Assembly: GCF_000003815.2 (NCBI RefSeq)
Contig: NC_049997.1
Coordinates: 7,598,707 to 7,662,706, forward strand
DNA: 64,000 bases
Reading direction: 5' to 3'
Source: Branchiostoma floridae
Taxonomy: Eukaryota; Chordata; Leptocardii; Amphioxiformes; Branchiostomatidae
Below the pieces are notes generated by a model that saw only the letters and a program-made list of their open reading frames with translations, ran no database searches and was not told the origin of the DNA. The position numbers and the translations under genes are program-made. Shown in pieces: positions 22,717-42,756 of the stretch. Position 1 is the stretch's first letter. Each line of letters starts with the position of its first letter.

Positions 22717-25700
22717 CTACGGCTTGCCTTCGTTACCGATTAGGGGTTTCTGCACACCTTCGTAGCCACGCCTCCTGAAAAAGAAACACACAGACATTTA
22801 ATCTCACTTTTCATGGGTTTTTCTTGCTTTAAAAATCTGAATCCTTTATTTGCAAATACAAATTGCTTTTGGGGGATTAGGAAACCTTGAATTAGCTTTT
22901 TGAAGGCACTCCACCTGAGCCTACCATACACCTGTATCTGTATCTATAAAGCCGCCCTTTGGCGTAACACTTCAGCTTCACAGGCACGCGTCGCGACAAC
23001 ATCTGATATACATGTAGCCTGACAATGTTTTTGTCGAAGTATCCTCAAGTTCCATAACAATTGTTTCACTGCGATTGATACAGGCATTGTCAGTCAGTGG
23101 ATCAGTTCATCATCTTGTGTTGGGAAAGCAAAAGCTAGTACCCACTGACAAATGTCAGAAAAAGAATTTACGGGTCTTAGTGGCAAGTGTGCAGATGTTG
23201 ACACACTGGCAGCACCAAATCCGTAGGTGTTTTCGACAGATTAGCCGTAATGCTCGCTGGCCGTTACTCCACCGTCATGGGGGCATGGGCTTGGCGAGTA
23301 TCGAACTCAGGACCTACTGATTTTTATTCCAACGCTCTAGCCGTTGCGCCACACAGACACTCCTGTCCACACAGACAAATGGTAGATGCCTCACATACGT
23401 ATACATACCGTTTAACGATGCACCAGGCAGTCAGAGCGGTGACCAGGATCCCGCTAGCCAGACTCAGGATGACGGGCAAAGCTAAACTGGACCCGCCAAC
23501 ACCTAATCACCATCAAAAGACAATGTTTAAACATCATACATTACTCAGTAAGATGTTTGACTACCTAGCTAGCCCCTCGGCGATCTATAAGTCTAAGAAC
23601 ATTTCTTTAGCTTATAACTTCTCTCTTGCTGTGTGGTCTTCATGGAACTAGCAGTAGTAGATGTACCGCGGTATAGACAACACAAGAGAAGAAAAACAAG
23701 CCAAGCTTTAGTGACACAACAAAAAAGTACAGTGACTTCTGTATGGTCGACATGAAATATAAACTACAAAAATGTTGATACAGACTAAATCCATATATTA
23801 GTATATGTGGCTATTTGGACCATTTCTACACTGAAAATGATTATAAGATAGACAACCAGAATACATATATTGGGTCATTTTACAGTTCTTTGGCCTTAAA
23901 TAAACAGAGTGAAGAAAATAACACAAACCTCCACTGTACAGCACGAAGGTAACATAACCATACTCCTCCTCGGTAAGGCTACATCTCCCCTCCAGTCTGC
24001 CGCTGTACAGTACACCGTCAGACAGCTCTTCCAGCTGGGTTCACAAAACAAGCATGTCGGATTTTAAAGGTAAAATCATAGTTTGCATCTCCAAAAGACC
24101 ATTGGTTTATAGAAATAAAACTTTATCCATAGCCTGGTGTTGCGAAATTTCAAGAACATATCATAAAGTACAGTGTACATATAAACTTGTAATTATGGCT
24201 CAAGTTAGTGTAGATGATTGCAAATATGTGACATTATATTACATGGACTTCAGCCATTTTGTATTATATATACGTTGTATTCTAATTTTCAGACTTATTC
24301 AAGTACATATTTTTGTTTATTTTATTCCACCTTCACAATCTTGACATACGACCTATCATGGCATTTCACTGCCTAAAACAAACATGTAGACAACACGTAC
24401 GTTTCCAGTCATGCCACAAACCAGCGGTTTCGATGTTATGTCTCCCACCACTGCCTTCGGGCGCAGCATCAGCAGATGTGTGTCACCGTCATACCGACCT
24501 GAATACGGAAAGAGGGTCAACCAGACAACCTCTGAAGTAAGACTTGATTATTTAGTCCATTTATTTAGTACGTATTTTGTTCTTACTTATAAAAACGTGT
24601 TAGTTGAAATAAACGTGCTAATATAATTTTTCATGAGTTAACCCTTTTTTATACCAGACGGTACTTCTTGAAACACTCTTTGGTATAATAAAGGGATAAG
24701 ACCCCCGATATCCCATCTTTTTGCCAGTAGGTACTTCTTGACACATTCTTTGGTATAATAAAGGGATAAGACCCCCGATATCCCATCTTTCTGCCAATAG
24801 GTACTTCTTGAATATACACTATGGTATAATAAAGGGATAAGACCCCCGATATCCCATATTTTTGCCAATAGGTACTTCTTGAATATACACTATGGTATGA
24901 TAAAGGGATATGACCCCCGATATCACATCTTTTTGCCAATAGGTACTTCTTGAAACACTCTTTGGTATAATAAAGGGATAAGACCCCCGATATCCCAACT
25001 TTTTGCCAGTAGGTACTTCTTGAATCACTCTTTGGTATAATAAAGGGATAAGACCCCCGATACCCCATCTTTTTGCCAATAGGTACTTCTTGAAACACTC
25101 TTTGGTATAATAAAGGGATAAGACCCCCGCTATCCCATTTTTTTGCCAATAGGTACTTCTTGACACATTCTTTGGTATAATAAAGGGATAAGACCCCCGT
25201 TATCACATCTTTTTGCCAATAGGATCTTCTTGAAACACTCTTTGGTATAATAAAGGGATAAGACCCCCGATATCCCAACTTTTTGCCAATAGGTACTTCT
25301 TGAATCACTATTTGGTATAATAAAGGGATAAGACCCCCGATATCCCAACTTTTTGCCAATAGGTACTTCTTGAAACACTCTATGGTATAATAAAGGTATA
25401 AGACCCCCGATATCCCATCTTTTTGCCAATAGGTACTTCTTGAATATACACTATGGTATAATAAAGGGATAAGACCCCCGATATCCCATCTTTTTGCCAA
25501 TGGGAACTTCTTGAAACACTCTTTGGTATAATAAAGGGATAAGAATACTCGTTGTTTAGAGTAGAGTAGAGCAGAGTAGAGTAGAGCAGTGTAGAGTAGA
25601 GTAGAGTAGAGTAGAGTAGAGTAGAGTAGAGTAGAGTAGAATTCGTCTGTTTGGTAGGAGAAACAAGGGTTGTCCTAGTTATTTTAATCTTTCATCTTGT

Positions 25701-28700
25701 ATTTGTATGTCTAATGTTAAATAAAGATGATTCTGCTCTGCACATTCATGCCCTATCATGCTAAGTACAGGCATAATGTTATAGATGCATTTATGTTTTA
25801 CATTTTTAGCAATTATTTATGAGAGAAAATGCTACATTATGTGCGAAACCTTCACTGTGCGAAAGGGTGTCATTTCCGGACGTTTCTATGTTTGTATACA
25901 TCCGGATCGGGACCGTTTCTGGATATATCCGGACAATATCCGGACGAACGGGCAATTTGTAAACAAGCCGGGGATGACACGCGGGGGTTCCAACTGAAAG
26001 AGAAGTGATCTATCATACAACAATCTTTACAAAAAGATCACACTACTAATTATTAAATACACAAAACACTAGGAAGGGATAACAGACATTGCTGACAGAC
26101 ATATACGGAACTAAGAACGGTATTAAACTGCTATGTATATACAATCTATGTACTAGAGAGCTACACTACTCACTTCTTCAAGTTCTTGGTCCGGTAGCGG
26201 CTAGCGGCGGCGACAACTGATGTTCAAATCTAGTTTCAAAACTAACTGCTGTCACCAGCTGGTCTACTATTGGTCTAGTCAAGTCATGTGACTTCCTAAT
26301 ATGGTCTTGTTACCTAAGGACTCCTCCAGATGGTTCCAAGCAAGTTAGTGTCATCCATCATGCCTGTTTCACAGAAACACATGGCATTGTGCATTATTTT
26401 TTGTGAATAAATGCATCATGTACTTACCAGTTTCAAAGTTGTACACAGCAGCAAACGCTGTGGCGCGGTGTAGGCTGTTATCTGCAGCGACTTCCCCAGT
26501 GCCTGGCGCACCGTTGACATGCCAACGCACTGGTCTGCTCGGCACTTTGCACAGCTTGCATAACCGCTTTACGAGTGCCTCGTGATATTGTCCGGATATG
26601 GACCATTCCCACATAGCAACGCTGGTATTCAATATCATGAGTGACTTTTTGTCATGATATTGTACGGATATGGATCTATCCCAAACTGACCCGCTGGGGT
26701 GGAGTGTTTTGACCGAATTTTGTTCAAGATATTGTCCGGATATGGACCTATACCAAACTGCACCGCTGGCGTGGAGTGTTTTGACTGAACTTTGTTCAAG
26801 ATATTGTCCGGATATGGACATATCCCAAACTGCACCGCTGGGGTGGAGTGTTTTGACTGAACTTTGTTCAAGATATTGTCCGGATATGGACCTATCCCAA
26901 ACTGCACCGCTGGGGTGGAGTGTTTTGACTGAACTTTGTTCAAGATATTGTCCGGATATGGACCTATCCCAAACTGCACCGCTGGGGTGGAGTGTTTTGA
27001 CCGAACTTTGTTCAAGATATTGTCCGGATATGGACCTATCCCAAACTGCACCGCTGGGGTGGAGTGTTTTGACTGAACTTTGTTCAAGATATTATCCGGA
27101 TATGGACCTATCCCAAACTGCACCGCTGGGGTGGAGTGTTTTGACTGAACTTTGTTCAAGATATTATCCGGATATGGACATATCCCAAACTGCACCGCTG
27201 GGGTGGAGTGTTTTGACTGAACTTTGTTCAAGATATTATCCGGATATGGACCTATCCCAAACTGCACCGCTGGGGTGGAGTGTTTTGAGTGAATGTTGTT
27301 CTTGATATTGTCCGGATATGCAAAGAAACAATAATACTTGACTCATAATTGTTACCATCGCAAAAATTGTTTTCTGTGTCATTTGATTGTGAATGTCGAT
27401 GTTAGTATATTTGCACATGCATATGGTAGCTTAAGCTTCAATTACCAGAAAATTAAAGAGTAAACATACATCGACATCGGGCGTACTCGTTGTAAAATAA
27501 AAACACATATACAGAAACAAAAACGTTAATGACGTCTATTTGACAAGATAGGAAACCTTTTTAGGATACCCAACAAAGCAATCTCAGATTCATGTATGAC
27601 AAGAAAAGTAATTTGTTAACCATTAAGTGGTCCGAAAACTGATCTCTGGAATGTTTCTGTGTTGGACATCTGTCGTAAATGGAACGGAATATGAATTTGG
27701 AAGTAGCGAAAATTTCGGCAAAAAATTGAAGTCTTATTTGTTCAGATGCACAATAAAACAATCACCGATTCACAATTCACGTATAGAATACCTTTATCAG
27801 TAACGGTCAGAATATGCTAACTCCAAATCTGTCCTAAAATCCATGGAATATCTGTCGCGGATATGTCTCGTAAATGGAAGGAAAAGAAAATAGTATGAGT
27901 TCGAAAACATGAAACGTCGCTGACACGTATTCGGAAGAACGGGAAATTCTATCCGTCCGGGCATGTGCCAAAACAGTTCATGACTCATGACATTCTGAGA
28001 CATAATGAATATGAAAATGTCATCTGACAATGGCCCAGAAAAAATGCACATCATGTTTCGTGCAAACTCCTAATTTGTCCGGGTATTCCTTAACGAAATA
28101 TATGGACCTTGGATATGCAAAGAATGTGGAACATATCACGTATTCGGAGGCAAGAAACGTCAATGGCGCGAATCCTGAAAAACAGGAAAGTCTTATTTGT
28201 CCGGATACATAACAAGACAATTCCTGACTCATGATATTTCCAGATATGGGAAATATTGAACATCGTGCCCGGACGCAGTCCGAATATTTAGCATGTCCAA
28301 AAATATGTAAACTCCGACTTTGTCCGGAAATCACACCCTTTCGCACAGTGCTTTTCCGACACTTATGTGTGAGGGATAATTGGTCGCTATATGTGTGTAA
28401 TTTTGCAACACTAGGTCCCCGATACCCCCCCCCCCATCTACAGCCGTGGCATAGATACGCACCAACCACAACTCAGCCAAGAAAGCTGATAATGAGGAAC
28501 AGACACTGCTAGCTGGAGTGACGGTATCCTTATAGTCAAGGGGGTCTTATCCCTTTATTATACCATGGAGTGTATTCAAGAATTCCTATTGGCAAAAAGA
28601 TGGGATAGCGAGGGTCTTATCCCTTTGTTATACCAAAGTGTGTTTCAAAAGTACCTATTGGCAAAAAAGATGGGATAACGGGGGTCTTATCCCTTTCTTA

Positions 28701-31700
28701 TACCAAAGAGTGTTTCAAAAGTACCTATTGGCAAAAAGATGGGATAGCGGGGGTCTTATCCCTTTATTATACCAAAGAGTGTTTCAAAAGTACCTATTGG
28801 CAAAAAGATGGGATAACGGGGGTCTTACCCCTTTATTATACCAAAGAGTGTTTCAAAAGTACCTATTGGCAAAAAGATGGGATAGCGGGGGTCTTATCCC
28901 TTTATTATACCAAAGAGTGTTTCAAAAGTACCTATTGGCAAAAAGATGGGATAACGGGGGTCTTATCCCTTTATTATACCAAAGAGTGTTTCAAAAGTAC
29001 CTATTGGCAAAAAGATGGGATAACGGGGGTCTTATCCCTTTATTATACCAAAGAGCGTTTCAAAAGTACCTATTGGCAAAAAGATGGGATAGCGGAGGTC
29101 TTAGCCCTTTATTATACCAAAGAATGTTTCAAGAAGTACCTACTGGCAAAAAGATGGGATAACGGGGGTCTTATCCCTTTATTATACCATAGAGTGTTTC
29201 AAGAAGTACCTATTGGCAAAAAGATGGGATAACTGGGGTCTGATCCCTTTATTATACCATAGAGTGTATTCAAGAAGTACCTATTGGCAAAAAGATGGGA
29301 TAACGGAGGTCTTAGCCCTTTATTATACCAAAGAATGTTTCAAGAAGTACCTACTGGCAAAAACATGGGATAACTGGGGTCTTATCCCTTTATTATACCA
29401 TAGAGTGTTTCAAGAAGTACCTATTGGCAAAAAGATGGGATAACGGGGGTCTTATCCCTTTATTATACCAAAGAGTGTTTCAAAAGTACCTATTGGCAAA
29501 AAGATGGGATAACGGGGGTCTTATCCCTTTATTATACCAAAGAGTGTTTCAAGAAATATCTATTGGCAAAAAGATGGGATAGCGGGGGTCTTATCCCTTT
29601 ATTATACCATAGAGTAACTAAAGAATAGTGGTAAAAGATGAATACTGGTATAAAATGGGTTTAAGGTTTGTACCCTATGTTAGCACAACTCTTTGTAGAT
29701 AGCAAGTGTTTCTAAAATATATATTTTTAAGGGCTAAAAAACTGGGATAAATAACCAGTACTTCTGAAGTATGTATACGGCCTCAGCGTACGTAACTCCC
29801 TTGTGTTACAGCCACTGCAGTTTTACGATTATTGGTATCACCTTTCGCTAAAAGACTCATCAGCTTTACCTCAGCCAATATCAATGTTTTGATCACAAGT
29901 CCTCATCTTTTACCGGATAGGTTAAAGTGCTGGATAAAACAATAGTATTGCAGCTATGTGTTTGCCTTCCTATGTCATCATTTCCAACAAATCTACTTTA
30001 GGTTTCGATGATAACGGCATATATAGCAACTTATCTTTGCATTACTGTAACAACTTTACGACCATGTTCCATGTATTTGCAGCTAACAGGCGGTAACTGC
30101 ATAAATTAAAGGTAGTATCTCACTGCACTTATATTGTATAATTTAGATATTGCGTAATACTCAAAGTATGACTTACAGGACAACAAAATGCACAAAACGT
30201 AAAGGAAAATTCGTTCTTTATCTCTGAATTTCGTTGAGTACTTTTCGAACCCCGCAGTGCCGCACTGGTGCCGCAGTGCAGTGAGATACCACCTTGACGA
30301 TGTTCATGTTTTGTGGATTATAACTAACCTTCCATGTCACTCTGTTATTTGATTCTTTGTTTATTTTCATGTAGTTATGTCTTGTGTTCAATAGACAGGT
30401 TGTTTTAGTTGACTTATAACCTTATTTGATGACTTCTAAGTTTGTATACCAGCTACACGTCACTTTGTTATTTGATTTCTTGTTGTTTTATTTCATGTCG
30501 TTATCATTATCTCTTGACTTTGTTATTTAGCGTTTTGTAGCCATGTATGTGCAGTGTCCAGATTTTGTTTATTTACATGAGGAGAAGACCTCAATAAGCA
30601 GGGTCTGCTTTCCGTCTCATCCTCTTACAAGAAATGTGAATAAAATAAAATTAAAAAAACTAACCTTCGAAGTCCAGAGTCCAGCTTGGGCCGGACAAGG
30701 TTGCCATGACGATACCAGTGGACGTGAATGACGACACCTTTAGCGTGAAGGTTTCTGTCTTGCCTGGGTCCAGGGTCAGTTCTCCGGACAGACTCAGACC
30801 GGAACTGAAGCCAGAAGGTGCTTCAGAGGTTGGGTCTACATAAAATATATGAATGGGCTGAGTGGAACATAATAATGATAATAATATCGGGTGTATTTTG
30901 CAGCAATTAGGTACCCAAAGTGTTGGTAATGAGGCTGTTTAACGTGGTCGAGGGACCTCCTCGAGCACGGGACCCCCTTTTTTCCCTCCCGGCTCCCGGA
31001 AGACGATTTCGTGGAAAGCTTCGTAAGGGTATAGCAATCCGGACGCCCTTGGTTGGTCCCCCATCCAAGTACTGTCCGGACCGCGCGGAGATCGAGGGAT
31101 CGGGTGTACCAACGCGCCACGCGAAAATAATGTATTTCTTTAAAAAATCATCGTAGATTACAATCTATAGACGCTAGGCATGGTAGAAGCACTCTTCTTA
31201 TATACATGGAAACAATGTTTGTTGTTAGATGTGAAAAAGTTTCATTAGGTTTGACAGGAAGTAGGTCGTTCCATTCATTCCATCTTCCTGATTCTTGAAC
31301 ATATTCATAGGTGCTTTTGCTCATGTACGTTAGAATTGGTTGTTTTGGCATATTTTTCCACATTTTGTTTGTCTGTGATGGAGGTTTAAACCACAAATGC
31401 AGCGAAATACGTCAATGATGTGCTAACATTCATATGCTTCGCTACTTGGATGTGCAGTCAAAACGGTCTAAAGCGACGACTCCATGTTAAGCCACAAAGA
31501 CACAAAGCCCAACTTCCCCACATTGACAGACGAACAGAAAGCCACTTTTCTCTTGAAATCGCAGAACCCACAAATTTTAGAAAATGTGGGACTTTTCGTC
31601 TCCCTCTGCTTCCAAAAAAGAAGTCAACCCCAACCTGTTTAGAAATAGCCAACACTAGTATTAGAGTAGAATATTGTTTATAGCTGTTCATTGTCACTTG

Positions 31701-39330: not shown

Positions 39331-39378
39331 CGTGTTTTCTGATAACCTATCTCAGGAAAGTGGGTCATATGTATCTAA

Positions 39379-39485
39379 AGACCTTTGGCCACTGTCCGAA
39401 AGACCTTTGGCCACTGTCCGAAAACAGTGGCCGACACAGCAGAAAGACCTTTGGCCACTGTCCGAAAACAGTGGCCAAAGGTCTT
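39379..39485. promoter_or_regulatory. amplified DR1-like motif cluster upstream of M28-like copy 2
   Basis: AGACCTTTGGCCACTGTCC occurs at 39379, 39400 and 39445, and its inverse GTGGCCAAAGGTCTTT at ~39471. One further partial copy lies at 39424-39433. The same motif is single in the matching position near copy 1 (15039) and the relic (21579). The last two copies form a hairpin. Regulatory function is inferred from conservation and position upstream of the first exon. Confidence 0.5.
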
Positions 39486-41093
39486 TGCTGATCTTTCTTG
39501 TCTCGTGTCACAAAACGCCCCTATCAATTTACGAACGAAATAAACAAAGTGCTTCTTTCCTAGAACGTCATCGTTATGGAATAAGCTTCCACATACTTGC
39601 TTCCCTGTGGGGTACAATCTGAAACTATATAATAAGTCAATATAGTACTAGTATTGTAACCCAAAACCTGGTGAATCCTAAGTAAAGAAAAAAGAATAGC
39701 CAATATAGCCACCCCCTTTGCACCGGATCCCGCAGAGGATGTAGCCGAGAATGTAGCCCCGGGCGGGCTCCGAAGCCACAATCTTGCCCCGGTGGCTTGA
39801 TCTGGCCATGGCTTGCCGCATACTGTGCACCCCACGGTGTACCCCACGGGTAGGTCACGGCGACCATTTGTTAACGGGTCCCGAGACGATTTTAACTCTG
39901 ACTTAAAATGAACACAGGGTCCGGCCGTACTCAAATATATCACAAGAGTCGAAGTGCCCCCAACAGCCCGTAAACTGCCCTGCAGGGCCCCTTCTTCCAA
40001 TTGGGACCATCCCAATTGGGATCATAGCCTAGGCAATGTTTAAAGTGTCTCCTACTGCCAATGAAGATTCATATACTGTCTGCAGAGTATATTATAATTT
40101 TTTCTAATATAATGTCGGCGTAGTTTCCTTTGGAATATTTGGCTGGTGCCGGTTGAATAGCAGATTGTTTAGTAACTGGCTAAAGTGAATAATTTAGCCA
40201 ACTGAGAGTGAGACGGCTGTCTACACTATGTCTACACATTGTTTATACCTAAGAGGCCACATATATTGAATTTCAGGGTAAACTCGTAGCTATAATTGTG
40301 TAGCTGATCACTTCAGACTAGGAAGTAAATTGTTATGACTTTATTTACATCACTCATCTTCCCATGTAGATGGTACGCATCAGGTTGATGAAGTGCTCTA
40401 GTTACGTTATACACCTATAGCATATGCTGAGAATACTACAAATCAGTTAAGATTAAACATGAAATACGATTTTGAGCAATTAATCTTGCAAGTAAACTGC
40501 CTTGAATTTGTGAAGATTTTTCCCACGTGCATGTCATATTTCAAGTCTTCTGTGTGGCCAAACTACGGTAGTCGGTCAAAAGGACTACTAATCTTTTCTT
40601 TTTCATATACTGATACAAAGGTATACAAATCAATGTCTTCTAATTTACAAAGTTTCAAAGTTATACACTTAATTACCTGTACAAGATGTCGACCATCTGC
40701 TTCACATATTCTAAGCTCCAACCCTATCGCGGTGTTGTTTTCTATTATTTCTATTAAGTCAACCGAAGCGATATTGATTTCCGACAACCTTTGACCGGGC
40801 GGCACATTTGCATAAAGTCACCAGTACATGGTGATTGACTCAGATAGACTGAGTCAAGTTCAGTCCAAAATTCCAGCGAGTAGGTTTTCTTTTAGTTGGC
40901 GAGCAATTTAATTCAGTGCAATTCAATTTAGAGCCTGACCTAGACTTCGTTGTTGGTAGTTAAAGTTTAAGATAAGTTTTGGATTAACAATTTGTATGAT
41001 GACATTTTGGAAATTTCTACGGGTTAGTATTGCTGTAGACGGTCATGGACATCAGTGGCCCATTGTCTGTCCCTGTTAGGTTTTATAGCTGTG
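39486..41093. other. intergenic, no gene recognised
   Basis: 39700-40020 is GC-richer and contains CCAATTGGGA twice. Short ORFs at 40459-40805 on both strands have no recognisable family or splice context. The LRR gene's 3' UTR should lie just left of 41094. Confidence 0.4.
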
Positions 41094-42737
41094 CTACAAA
41101 TTGCTACAGGCATCTGCCGGTATCTCATACAGGCCAGCCATATGCTGGCTTTCACACAGGTCATCTGCTGGACTCTCATACAAGGTATCTGCTGGCTTTT
41201 CGAAATCATATGTTTCATCTGCTGGCTTCTTATACACGTAAAAGGTATCTGCTGGCTTATCATACATGTGCAAAGCATCTGCTGGTTTCTCATATAGGCC
41301 TTTTCCTGGCTTCGTACACAAGGCATCTGCTGGGGTCTCATATAGGGGATCAGCACATGGATGGGGTGGGGGAAGTGGGGGAGACTCGTGTAGGGGCCTG
41401 TTTCTATCGGGAGGGTAACTCGTTTTCCTCGTCAGAGTCCGTGGACACGCACCCTTAGGTGCCACTGGGTTCTTTGTTGGTGGTTCAACATGCACATCTA
41501 CCTGAAGCTGTGAGGCAACCATATTTGATGAACTTCTGCCATCCAATATTTCAGTGGTATCCTCAATCGGCACCCGACCTGTCTGATCTTCACCGCTGAT
41601 GATTACAGTGGCTGTGGCTTTTGCGTTGCTGAAAACTGCTTTCGAATCTTGACCTGAATCGTGACTACTCACCCTCCTCTTCCACAAGATTGCGATAGCG
41701 GTGATAACGAGGGCAGTGCCGCCTAATGAAGCACAGACGGAGCCAATAACAACTGGGAGGGAGACTTTGGGGACAGATTCTTTATAACCGTTAACTTTCG
41801 GTATATCTGAAGTATCAGTTACTGTAAAACGTGAAGTTTTAACTGTGCAGGTGGAGCATACGTATACAGGGTGTGTTGTTGAAGCAGGATTGCTCTCTGT
41901 GCTGCCAAATGAAGACAATGCCGACGCTTCTGGTGTTGTGAAGGATGGTTGGGTATAATGATCAGCGGACATCACTGACATGGTTGTTTGTTTACAGACC
42001 AGGTCATGAGGATCCACATCTTTGAGCTTTTGCCTAAGTAGGCTGGTAGGTTTGGCACACGTTAACTGGTCTTCAAATGAAGCAGACCCTGTCATTTTCG
42101 ATCTGAAGGGCGCCATCCCACAGTCGCACTGCAAGGGATTGCCGTTTATAATTACTGAACCGATATATGTCAATATATCATATGCTGACATGGGAAGAGT
42201 AGATATTTTGTTTGAGTTCAGGAACAAAGTTTGGAGATTGGTTAGATTCGAAAATGCACTAAATGTAATGCTTACTATTTGGTTGTGCTGCAGGTACAAA
42301 CTTCGGAGATGGAAAAGATTCGAGAATGCACGAGATTGAATGTTTGTGATCTGATTTGATGCCAGAATCAAATAAGCAAGCTTGGGCAGTCTTGAAAACG
42401 CACCAGAATGAATCTTTGTGATCTGATTTAACTCAAGACTTAAAGATGTCAGCAGAGGCAGATGCGGGAAAGGGTCCAGGTTACGGATACGATTTTCCCG
42501 TAACGTAACATATACCAGATTCCTATATCTTAAGAGCTCATTCGCTTTTGTAATCTGATTACGTGTCAATTCCAAATGAGAAATGGATGTTGGCAGGGTC
42601 TGAGGGATGCTGGTGAGGCCCATCCCGATGCAGGTACAGCGTGAGGTTGATGTACAGCTGCAGTCAGCTTCTAGCGTGTTGAGTTCCTTCAGGATGATTA
42701 GAAGGCAAATCAACAGGCGCTGTATCATCCGCCCCAT
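41094..42737 (-). CDS. LRR transmembrane receptor with multi-YxxP cytoplasmic tail (547 aa)
   Basis: A single uninterrupted coding exon. Layout: signal peptide (1-~24), LRRNT-like Cys cluster (26-36, CSCTSTSRCTC), about six leucine-rich repeats (52-200; repeated L..N.I pattern), LRRCT (NPLQCDC at 200-206, with Cys227 and Cys248), a Ser/Thr-rich stalk (250-323), a membrane helix (~326-351) and a 195-residue cytoplasmic tail. The tail has a proline-rich stretch (PPLPPPHP, 453-460). It then has seven imperfect repeats built on Y-x-x-P-A-D (465-543), including YETP, YEKP, YDKP, YKKP, YESP and YEIP. pYxxP is the known preference of Crk-family SH2 domains, so the tail may be a tyrosine-phosphorylation scaffold (inference). 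A minus-strand acceptor (cttcag at 42751-42756) precedes the ATG, so a non-coding upstream exon is likely. The LRR ectodomain is most like that of cell-surface adhesion or immune-type LRR receptors; the ligand is unknown. Confidence 0.92.
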   Translation of the reverse strand: MGRMIQRLLICLLIILKELNTLEADCSCTSTSRCTCIGMGLTSIPQTLPTSISHLELTRNQITKANELLRYRNLVYVTLRENRIRNLDPFPHLPLLTSLSLELNQITKIHSGAFSRLPKLAYLILASNQITNIQSRAFSNLFHLRSLYLQHNQIVSITFSAFSNLTNLQTLFLNSNKISTLPMSAYDILTYIGSVIINGNPLQCDCGMAPFRSKMTGSASFEDQLTCAKPTSLLRQKLKDVDPHDLVCKQTTMSVMSADHYTQPSFTTPEASALSSFGSTESNPASTTHPVYVCSTCTVKTSRFTVTDTSDIPKVNGYKESVPKVSLPVVIGSVCASLGGTALVITAIAILWKRRVSSHDSGQDSKAVFSNAKATATVIISGEDQTGRVPIEDTTEILDGRSSSNMVASQLQVDVHVEPPTKNPVAPKGACPRTLTRKTSYPPDRNRPLHESPPLPPPHPCADPLYETPADALCTKPGKGLYEKPADALHMYDKPADTFYVYKKPADETYDFEKPADTLYESPADDLCESQHMAGLYEIPADACSNL

Positions 42738-42756
42738 GTTGGCCTGTTACCTGAAG

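Follow-up and report, generated by a model that had tools for sequence, protein, structure and literature searches.

A tandem YxxP tail on a leucine-rich repeat receptor of Branchiostoma floridae

A stretch of 64,000 nucleotides from the lancelet Branchiostoma floridae (NCBI RefSeq assembly GCF_000003815.2, contig NC_049997.1, positions 7,598,707 to 7,662,706 of the forward strand; hereafter the window, within which positions are numbered from its first letter) carries a gene for a leucine-rich repeat (LRR) receptor with a transmembrane (TM) segment, whose tail ends in a tandem array of Y-x-x-P-A-D units. The gene belongs to a lancelet family of single-exon LRR-TM genes, with homology over the ectodomain and the juxtamembrane region. 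To all appearance, a single 24-bp unit from an earlier YxxP docking tail was amplified in minisatellite fashion to give the array, a descent that we infer because a three-tyrosine block in the tails of related genes is constrained, whereas the amplified arrays are looser. Taken as a whole, the statement that the window gene is a receptor of this large family with a YxxP docking tail, phosphorylated by kinases and most probably partnered by Crk-type adaptors, has in our judgement about an even chance of being right.

The YxxPAD array

A first-pass annotation, made from the letters of the window alone, had placed a run of YxxP motifs at 41094-41345. The run is real, and this span corresponds to amino acids (aa) 465-547 plus the stop codon on the minus strand. 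Nine units were delimited, with Tandem Repeats Finder (TRF) periods among the evidence:

41106-41345, minus strand: YxxPAD tandem array, nine units, aa 465-544
41325-41342, minus strand: unit YETPAD, aa 466
41301-41318, minus strand: decayed unit CTKPGK, aa 474
41277-41294, minus strand: unit YEKPAD, aa 482
41247-41264, minus strand: unit YDKPAD, aa 492
41217-41234, minus strand: unit YKKPAD, aa 502
41187-41204, minus strand: unit FEKPAD, aa 512, phenylalanine replacing tyrosine
41163-41180, minus strand: unit YESPAD, aa 520
41133-41156, minus strand: decayed unit CESQHMAG, aa 528
41112-41129, minus strand: last unit YEIPAD, aa 537, its DNA by eye resembling unit 3 of the three-tyrosine block

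The array was thus composed of six YxxPAD units, one FxxPAD unit and two decayed units; the YxxP motifs number six and not the seven originally counted. Tyrosine was retained in 6/9 units, proline in 8/9 and PAD in 7/9. Units measured 24, 27 or 30 bp (8-10 residues), shorter than the 27-36 bp first proposed, and TRF periods of 24 and 30 bp bore out the minisatellite-like character of the DNA. When the last 172 residues were shuffled, six or more YxxP arose in 4 of 20,000 shuffles and two or more YxxPAD in 1 of 20,000, against six observed in each case. Leucine, valine or methionine was found directly before each of the six YxxP tyrosines, a position where Abl favours an aliphatic residue.

Coding DNA for the array was sought elsewhere in the genome (513-Mb assembly, 431 contigs). 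The tail search returned seven matches, one being the gene itself and three a second array gene, L041; in the matches L055 and L057 three YxxP occurred in no single frame, and the IYARPASS repeat of L056 is of another kind.

The three-tyrosine block

The block CVYVxPDGAxYMxPEDVLYEMPAN was common to four paralogues (L002, L003, L011 and L016), its last unit deviating in L003 (I for M) and L011 (H for P), and its tyrosines recur every 8 residues, which matches the 24-bp unit of the window array. Searched with the L002 tail, the genome yielded 31 matches (E up to 10), with about 15 distinct places reaching 1e-3; one of these, C7:17362341, carries a stop and is situated near L011; C5:6833948 was slightly weaker than 1e-3, and the block there was confirmed in L066. 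Nine further tail pieces were read for this comparison, and blocks were located with a scan pattern using neither Y nor P, applied to all loci read except the window gene and L041.

In total, 21 blocks were found in 13 loci, with two or three blocks in 7/13, and 8/13 loci (all but L058, L061, L062, L065 and L066) adjoined an LRR match among the matches listed. The tyrosine was kept in 57/59 units (16/17, 21/21 and 20/21 by position) and the +3 proline in 51/59 (15/17, 18/21 and 18/21), counts that are not independent because some loci are near-copies (L058/L060) and 9/13 were recruited by similarity to one query. The two tyrosine misses were an L066 block without unit 1 and a cysteine at the third position in L065. 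Residues after the proline differed by block unit (DG, ED/EN, mostly AN/AD), so PAD is not the conserved part of the block. Tyrosine codons in 20 blocks, where the pattern fixed the second tyrosine, were TAT in 44/55 and TAC in 11/55, with one loss to cysteine. In five of the six pairs among the four genes, the proportion of synonymous differences (pS) was 0.26-0.39 vs 0.05-0.11 for nonsynonymous differences (pN); the sixth pair had pS 0 and pN 0.05. Judged from these comparisons among paralogues, the tyrosine of the block is constrained.

In L066 (C5:6833800-6834190), three tandem copies of a YxxP block alternate with proline-rich APPRK/PSPPRH stretches.

Constraint in the amplified arrays

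The second array gene, L041 (contig C11), carries 30 units of exactly 24 bp and has 8 YxxP in its tail. Its consensus unit, TATGAGAAGCCAGCAGATGGCATG, differs from that of the window, TATGAGAAGCCAGCAGATGCCTTG, at 2/24 bases, and sequence identity between the two ectodomains is 51% (298 aligned residues). By eye, the L041 array at aa 757-996 looks higher-order: in 6/7 cases the unit after one with a penultimate cysteine has a tyrosine, which is never so after a unit ending in G-M.

Several observations weigh against a ladder of docking sites in which each copy matters. The L041 units retained tyrosine in 11/30, P in 22/30, A in 17/30 and D in 27/30; their tyrosine codon showed 21 nonsynonymous vs 2 synonymous changes, with an overall nonsynonymous/synonymous ratio of 0.80 to the consensus unit, and it is this substitution pattern that, on the sequences compared, most weakens such a reading. 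The window array has itself lost tyrosine from 3/9 units, and its ratio to the consensus unit was 0.69 (8/9 units, the changes being too few for certainty), so that variation inside both amplified arrays appears near neutral. Tyrosine retention in the window (6/9) and in L041 (11/30) did not differ significantly (Fisher p 0.14). Furthermore, the P-A-D codons of the window array were near-uniform (GCA 7/7, GAT 7/7, CCA 6/7), and third-base variation in the codons for Y, P, A and D was low across the seven units with PAD (12/84 pairwise differences, vs 67/105 in five flanking codons). The chance of this uniformity given the gene's own codon use was 0.0004 for alanine, 0.006 for proline and 0.1 each for aspartate and tyrosine. 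Codon use therefore fails to explain the alanine and proline codons, though it may account for those of aspartate and tyrosine, and recent DNA homogenisation is indicated as partly responsible; by this codon evidence, PAD conservation in the window is in part homogeneity of the DNA and not protein selection. Across the 44 family tails described below, the YxxP total was in modest excess only, 34 vs 22.5 expected by shuffling.

The first-pass annotation had named loss of tyrosine with retention of PAD in other lancelets as the pattern that would count against it, and among paralogues the outcome was divided: the three-tyrosine block shows the opposite (Y 57/59, PAD not kept) and L041 the pattern itself (Y 11/30, D 27/30).

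The array could accordingly be a mostly neutral or weakly constrained coding minisatellite whose copies hitchhike, with signalling, if any, passing through one or two tyrosines or by another route. Such an array would account for the near-neutral ratios in both genes, the loss of tyrosine beside a retained D in L041, the nearly invariant P-A-D wobble bases and the two decayed window units, and a 24-bp period preserves the reading frame at no cost. It accounts poorly for the tyrosines kept in the block across 13 loci, for six YxxP in the window, far above shuffles, and for proline in 8/9 units, and we consider it unlikely.

Gene model and receptor architecture

The window gene and its features, with the evidence for each, are as follows:

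41094-42737, minus strand: single-exon coding sequence, 547-aa LRR-TM receptor (open reading frame (ORF) list; Pfam LRR_8, E 7.6e-31; paralogues in the same genome)
42666-42737, minus strand: signal-peptide-like N-terminus, aa 1-24 (hydrophobic start judged by eye; helix 2-20 in the model)
41994-42662, minus strand: LRR ectodomain (Pfam; Protein Data Bank sequence matches, e.g. LRRC15, E 2.6e-41; AlphaFold; Foldseek)
42328-42461, minus strand: tandem repeat within the LRR region, 72-bp period, 1.9 copies (TRF)
41679-41765, minus strand: hydrophobic (transmembrane) segment, aa 325-353, then KRR, aa 353-355 (hydropathy windows starting at aa 325-335; model helix 339-359)
41358-41381, minus strand: PPLPPPHP stretch, aa 453-460 (pattern scan of aa 353-547)
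42751-42752, minus strand: possible splice acceptor (TTCTCTTCAG), 13 bases 5' of the ATG (sequence context only)
40907-40912, minus strand: possible polyadenylation signal ATTAAA, 182 bases 3' of the stop (sequence scan only)

The acceptor-like sequence suggests an intron in the 5' untranslated region. The protein reads, in order, as a hydrophobic start, an LRR domain with cysteine caps, a stalk, one TM segment, KRR and a tail, which agrees with the single-pass LRR receptor first described from the sequence, down to the PPLPPPHP ahead of the array; capped LRR, a signal peptide by eye and a single TM segment are all present. An AlphaFold model was built from 30 family rows, and a single-sequence model with a mean predicted local distance difference test score (pLDDT) of 32 was set aside. 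The pLDDT was at least 90 in every ten-residue block of aa 31-250 and about 32-42 per block in the tail, which is without predicted structure. The C-cap cysteines 204, 206, 227 and 248 were invariant in the 30 rows. Foldseek matches of the ectodomain model included SALM, Nogo receptor, Slitrk1, 5T4 and VLR; this places the fold among ordinary animal LRR domains, so that it names no ligand. Since the one hydrophobic segment ends in KRR and is followed by the low-confidence tail, the repeat-bearing tail is most likely cytoplasmic, as had been proposed.

A pattern scan of aa 353-547 found PPLP (aa 453) and one R..S.P (RKTSYP, aa 437), and no consensus SH3 class I/II, WW PPxY, EVH1, NPxY, Grb2 YxN, PI3K YxxM or TRAF motif, nor any immunoreceptor tyrosine-based inhibitory motif (ITIM; I/V/L-x-Y-x-x-L/V) or Y-x-x-I/L/V/M. 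The likeness to Cas that the annotation had drawn holds for the motif, with six YxxP in the last 82 residues, and fails for the family: Pfam found LRR families only, and membership of the Cas (BCAR1) family was rejected, no SH3 or FAT-like domain being found by Pfam in the 547 aa. DCBLD membership was likewise rejected, the Pfam result giving none of the CUB, LCCL and discoidin-type ectodomain.

Tail classes in the LRR-TM family

A protein search of the genome with the window gene gave at least 175 matching pieces, from which 79 candidates were scored; 50 of the 79, among the matches listed, were read as genes (window gene included). By a hydropathy rule, 44/50 had a TM segment, and tail counts refer to these 44, again with the window gene; the tails of L008, L011, L013, L017, L026 and L027 may be longer than counted because their ORFs reach the locus edge. 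A YEDI-like motif was found at 74 sites in 30/44 genes, NPxY at 46 sites in 23/44 and YxxP at 34 sites in 8/44, with 31 of the YxxP sites in six genes. Three or more YxxP were thus carried by 6 genes vs 0.86 expected by shuffling. The YEDI-like motif occurred in 1/6 of these YxxP genes vs 29/38 of the others (p 0.009) and NPxY in 0/6 vs 23/38 (p 0.008), both p values being too strong because the genes are related. From these counts, the genes with YxxP tails seem to form a class of their own within the family; other LRR-TM genes with tails of this class are present in the same genome.

Tandem YEDI/YEDM/YEDV and NPxY tail modules were seen in the paralogues L013, L017, L025, L034 and L048, with HDHQYEDIDKQHNQTGQGQSQ recurring in L017 and units of the form PPPLPPPR...LYEDVDAPPKSP in L013. 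YEDI resembles pYEEI, a ligand of the Src SH2 domain (PMC6938330).

Tails versus ectodomains

The neighbouring genes L003, L024 and L033 (contig C11, 20.64-20.66 Mb) have ectodomains 74-85% identical, L003 sharing 80% with L024 and 74% with L033, and among the three only L003 has a YxxP tail. Compared with L002 and L016, L003 was 54-56% identical in the tail and 46-49% in the ectodomain. At the DNA level, L003 and L024 were 82-87% similar up to base 1025 (the TM segment ends near aa 331), with short linker pieces beyond, and L003 and L016 were 71% similar over bases 879-1470. On the ectodomain tree the YxxP genes were scattered, requiring five changes, at least four of them forced by well-supported branches; their clustering did not clearly exceed that of shuffled labels (80/500 and 115/500 shuffles as low). 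One-clade tests (p 2.8e-60 and 5.8e-7) were set aside, as they involved a short-search tree with many weak branches, a gappy alignment in which repeat number varied, and post-hoc groups, and the L003/L024 comparison was relied upon instead.

Tails and ectodomains thus differ in history, as far as these sequences can tell. One reading is an exchange of tails at the juxtamembrane boundary; alternatively, an ancestral composite tail lost different parts in different genes, for which compare L011, which carries both a YxxP block and YENM/YEDM modules. We put forward tentatively, as a possibility well short of even, that lancelet LRR ectodomains are combined with a few internally amplified tail cassettes (YxxP, YEDI/YEDM/YEDV, NPxY) exchanged at the juxtamembrane region, with docking tuned by minisatellite copy number. 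If true, this would be a combinatorial receptor system, variable in output as well as in input.

Proposed signalling and candidate partners

For the window receptor, Crk/Abl-type signalling is by analogy the likeliest mechanism. The LRR ectodomain would be engaged or clustered by ligand, and kinases of Src/Lck or Abl type would phosphorylate the six YxxP tyrosines, a motif targeted by both the Src and Abl families (PMC6029619). The phosphotyrosines could then recruit several Crk-type SH2 adaptors at once, which would pass the signal to the actin and small-GTPase machinery, as proposed for DCBLD1/2. Extra unit copies would add docking sites of the existing kind and create no new one. Two crk transcripts from two loci are reported in B. 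floridae (PMC5043372).

It counts against the choice of Crk that YxxP does not single it out, and the SH2 domains of RasGAP also prefer pYxxP (PMC10470053). Were p120RasGAP, which has two SH2 domains, the main partner, the expected effect of the tail would instead be a dampening of Ras or a connection to Rho. The nine best-studied RasGAP partners, as aligned in PMC10470053, all have P at +3; peptides of p190RhoGAP and Dok1 bind at 10-30 nM, with family site spacings of 18 and 19-28 residues (PMC10470053), and tyrosine pairs in the window tail lie 16, 17, 18 and 20 residues apart. However, six sites easily yield such spacings, and a YxxPxD preference was not found in open-licence PMC full text and was not used as evidence. 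We regard this partner as quite unlikely.

An inhibitory receptor recruiting SHIP or SHP phosphatases, like BbLcLRR of B. belcheri, seems highly improbable given that the window tail has neither Y-x-x-I/L/V/M nor the ITIM pattern, and that BbLcLRR has a WSC domain. In its favour, BbLcLRR is an LRR-TM protein in which three phosphorylated tyrosines, a YDDP site among them, are needed for inhibition; once stimulated, it is found with SHIP1 and, to a lesser degree, with SHP1/2 (PMC8211107).

Comparison with known systems

The vertebrate proteins DCBLD1 and DCBLD2 have 8 and 7 intracellular YxxP and bind the CRKL SH2 domain after Fyn/Abl action (PMC6029619). They resemble the predicted window protein as single-pass receptors with a multi-YxxP cytoplasmic tail, and differ in combining a CUB/LCCL/discoidin ectodomain with scattered, conserved YxxP, whereas the window protein has LRRs and a tandem minisatellite. 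The substrate domain of p130Cas/BCAR1 shares the run of YxxP motifs, but the Cas family has an N-terminal SH3 and a C-terminal FAT-like domain, unlike the window protein by Pfam. PTSG_05573, one example of the choanoflagellate transmembrane proteins with cytosolic YxxP repeats, is similar in these respects, and phosphopeptides derived from it bind the Crk SH2 domain of Monosiga (PMC5043372); it differs in that no LRR ectodomain is described in the text available of that paper.

Among lancelet proteins, BbLcLRR has three tail tyrosines that Lck phosphorylates, including the one in HDY(690)DDP (PMC8211107), a site that fits YxxP. It resembles the window protein in being an LRR-TM receptor with tyrosines in its tail, YDDP among their contexts; its WSC domain and three ITIM or ITIM-like sites set it apart, and no YxxP array is reported in the accessible part of PMC8211107. 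The VLR-like LRR protein Bf66946 of B. floridae, a cysteine-capped LRR that binds bacteria (PMC4731796), shares the kind of ectodomain; the words 'transmembrane' and 'cytoplasmic' are absent from the main text of PMC4731796, and the comparison is of ectodomains only. In the open-licence PMC literature, as far as its text was available, no description of a YxxP tail class on lancelet LRR receptors was found, which is not proof of absence.

Multi-YxxP receptors are already known outside lancelets on other ectodomains; here the ectodomains are LRRs, a type out of which jawless vertebrates made antigen receptors, and the tails of the family are assembled from repeats bearing tyrosine motifs of several distinct sorts. 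Should these tails prove functional, they would illustrate how the same recognition domains can be coupled to a variety of SH2 or PTB partners, and how simple repeat expansion can alter the number of docking sites. The family also offers a clear comparison between a tyrosine-constrained block and amplified arrays with seemingly relaxed constraint.

Other features of the window

Eight other ORFs of the window matched no Pfam family at E 0.01. Three minisatellites were noted, at 24660-25544 (70-bp period, 12.6 copies), 26584-27320 (72-bp period, 10.2 copies) and 28540-29615 (69-bp period, 15.5 copies), and the long repeat ORFs arising from them are probably not genes. At 39377-39500, a 22-bp tandem repeat (AAAGACCTTTGGCCACTGTCCG) runs on into inverted copies.
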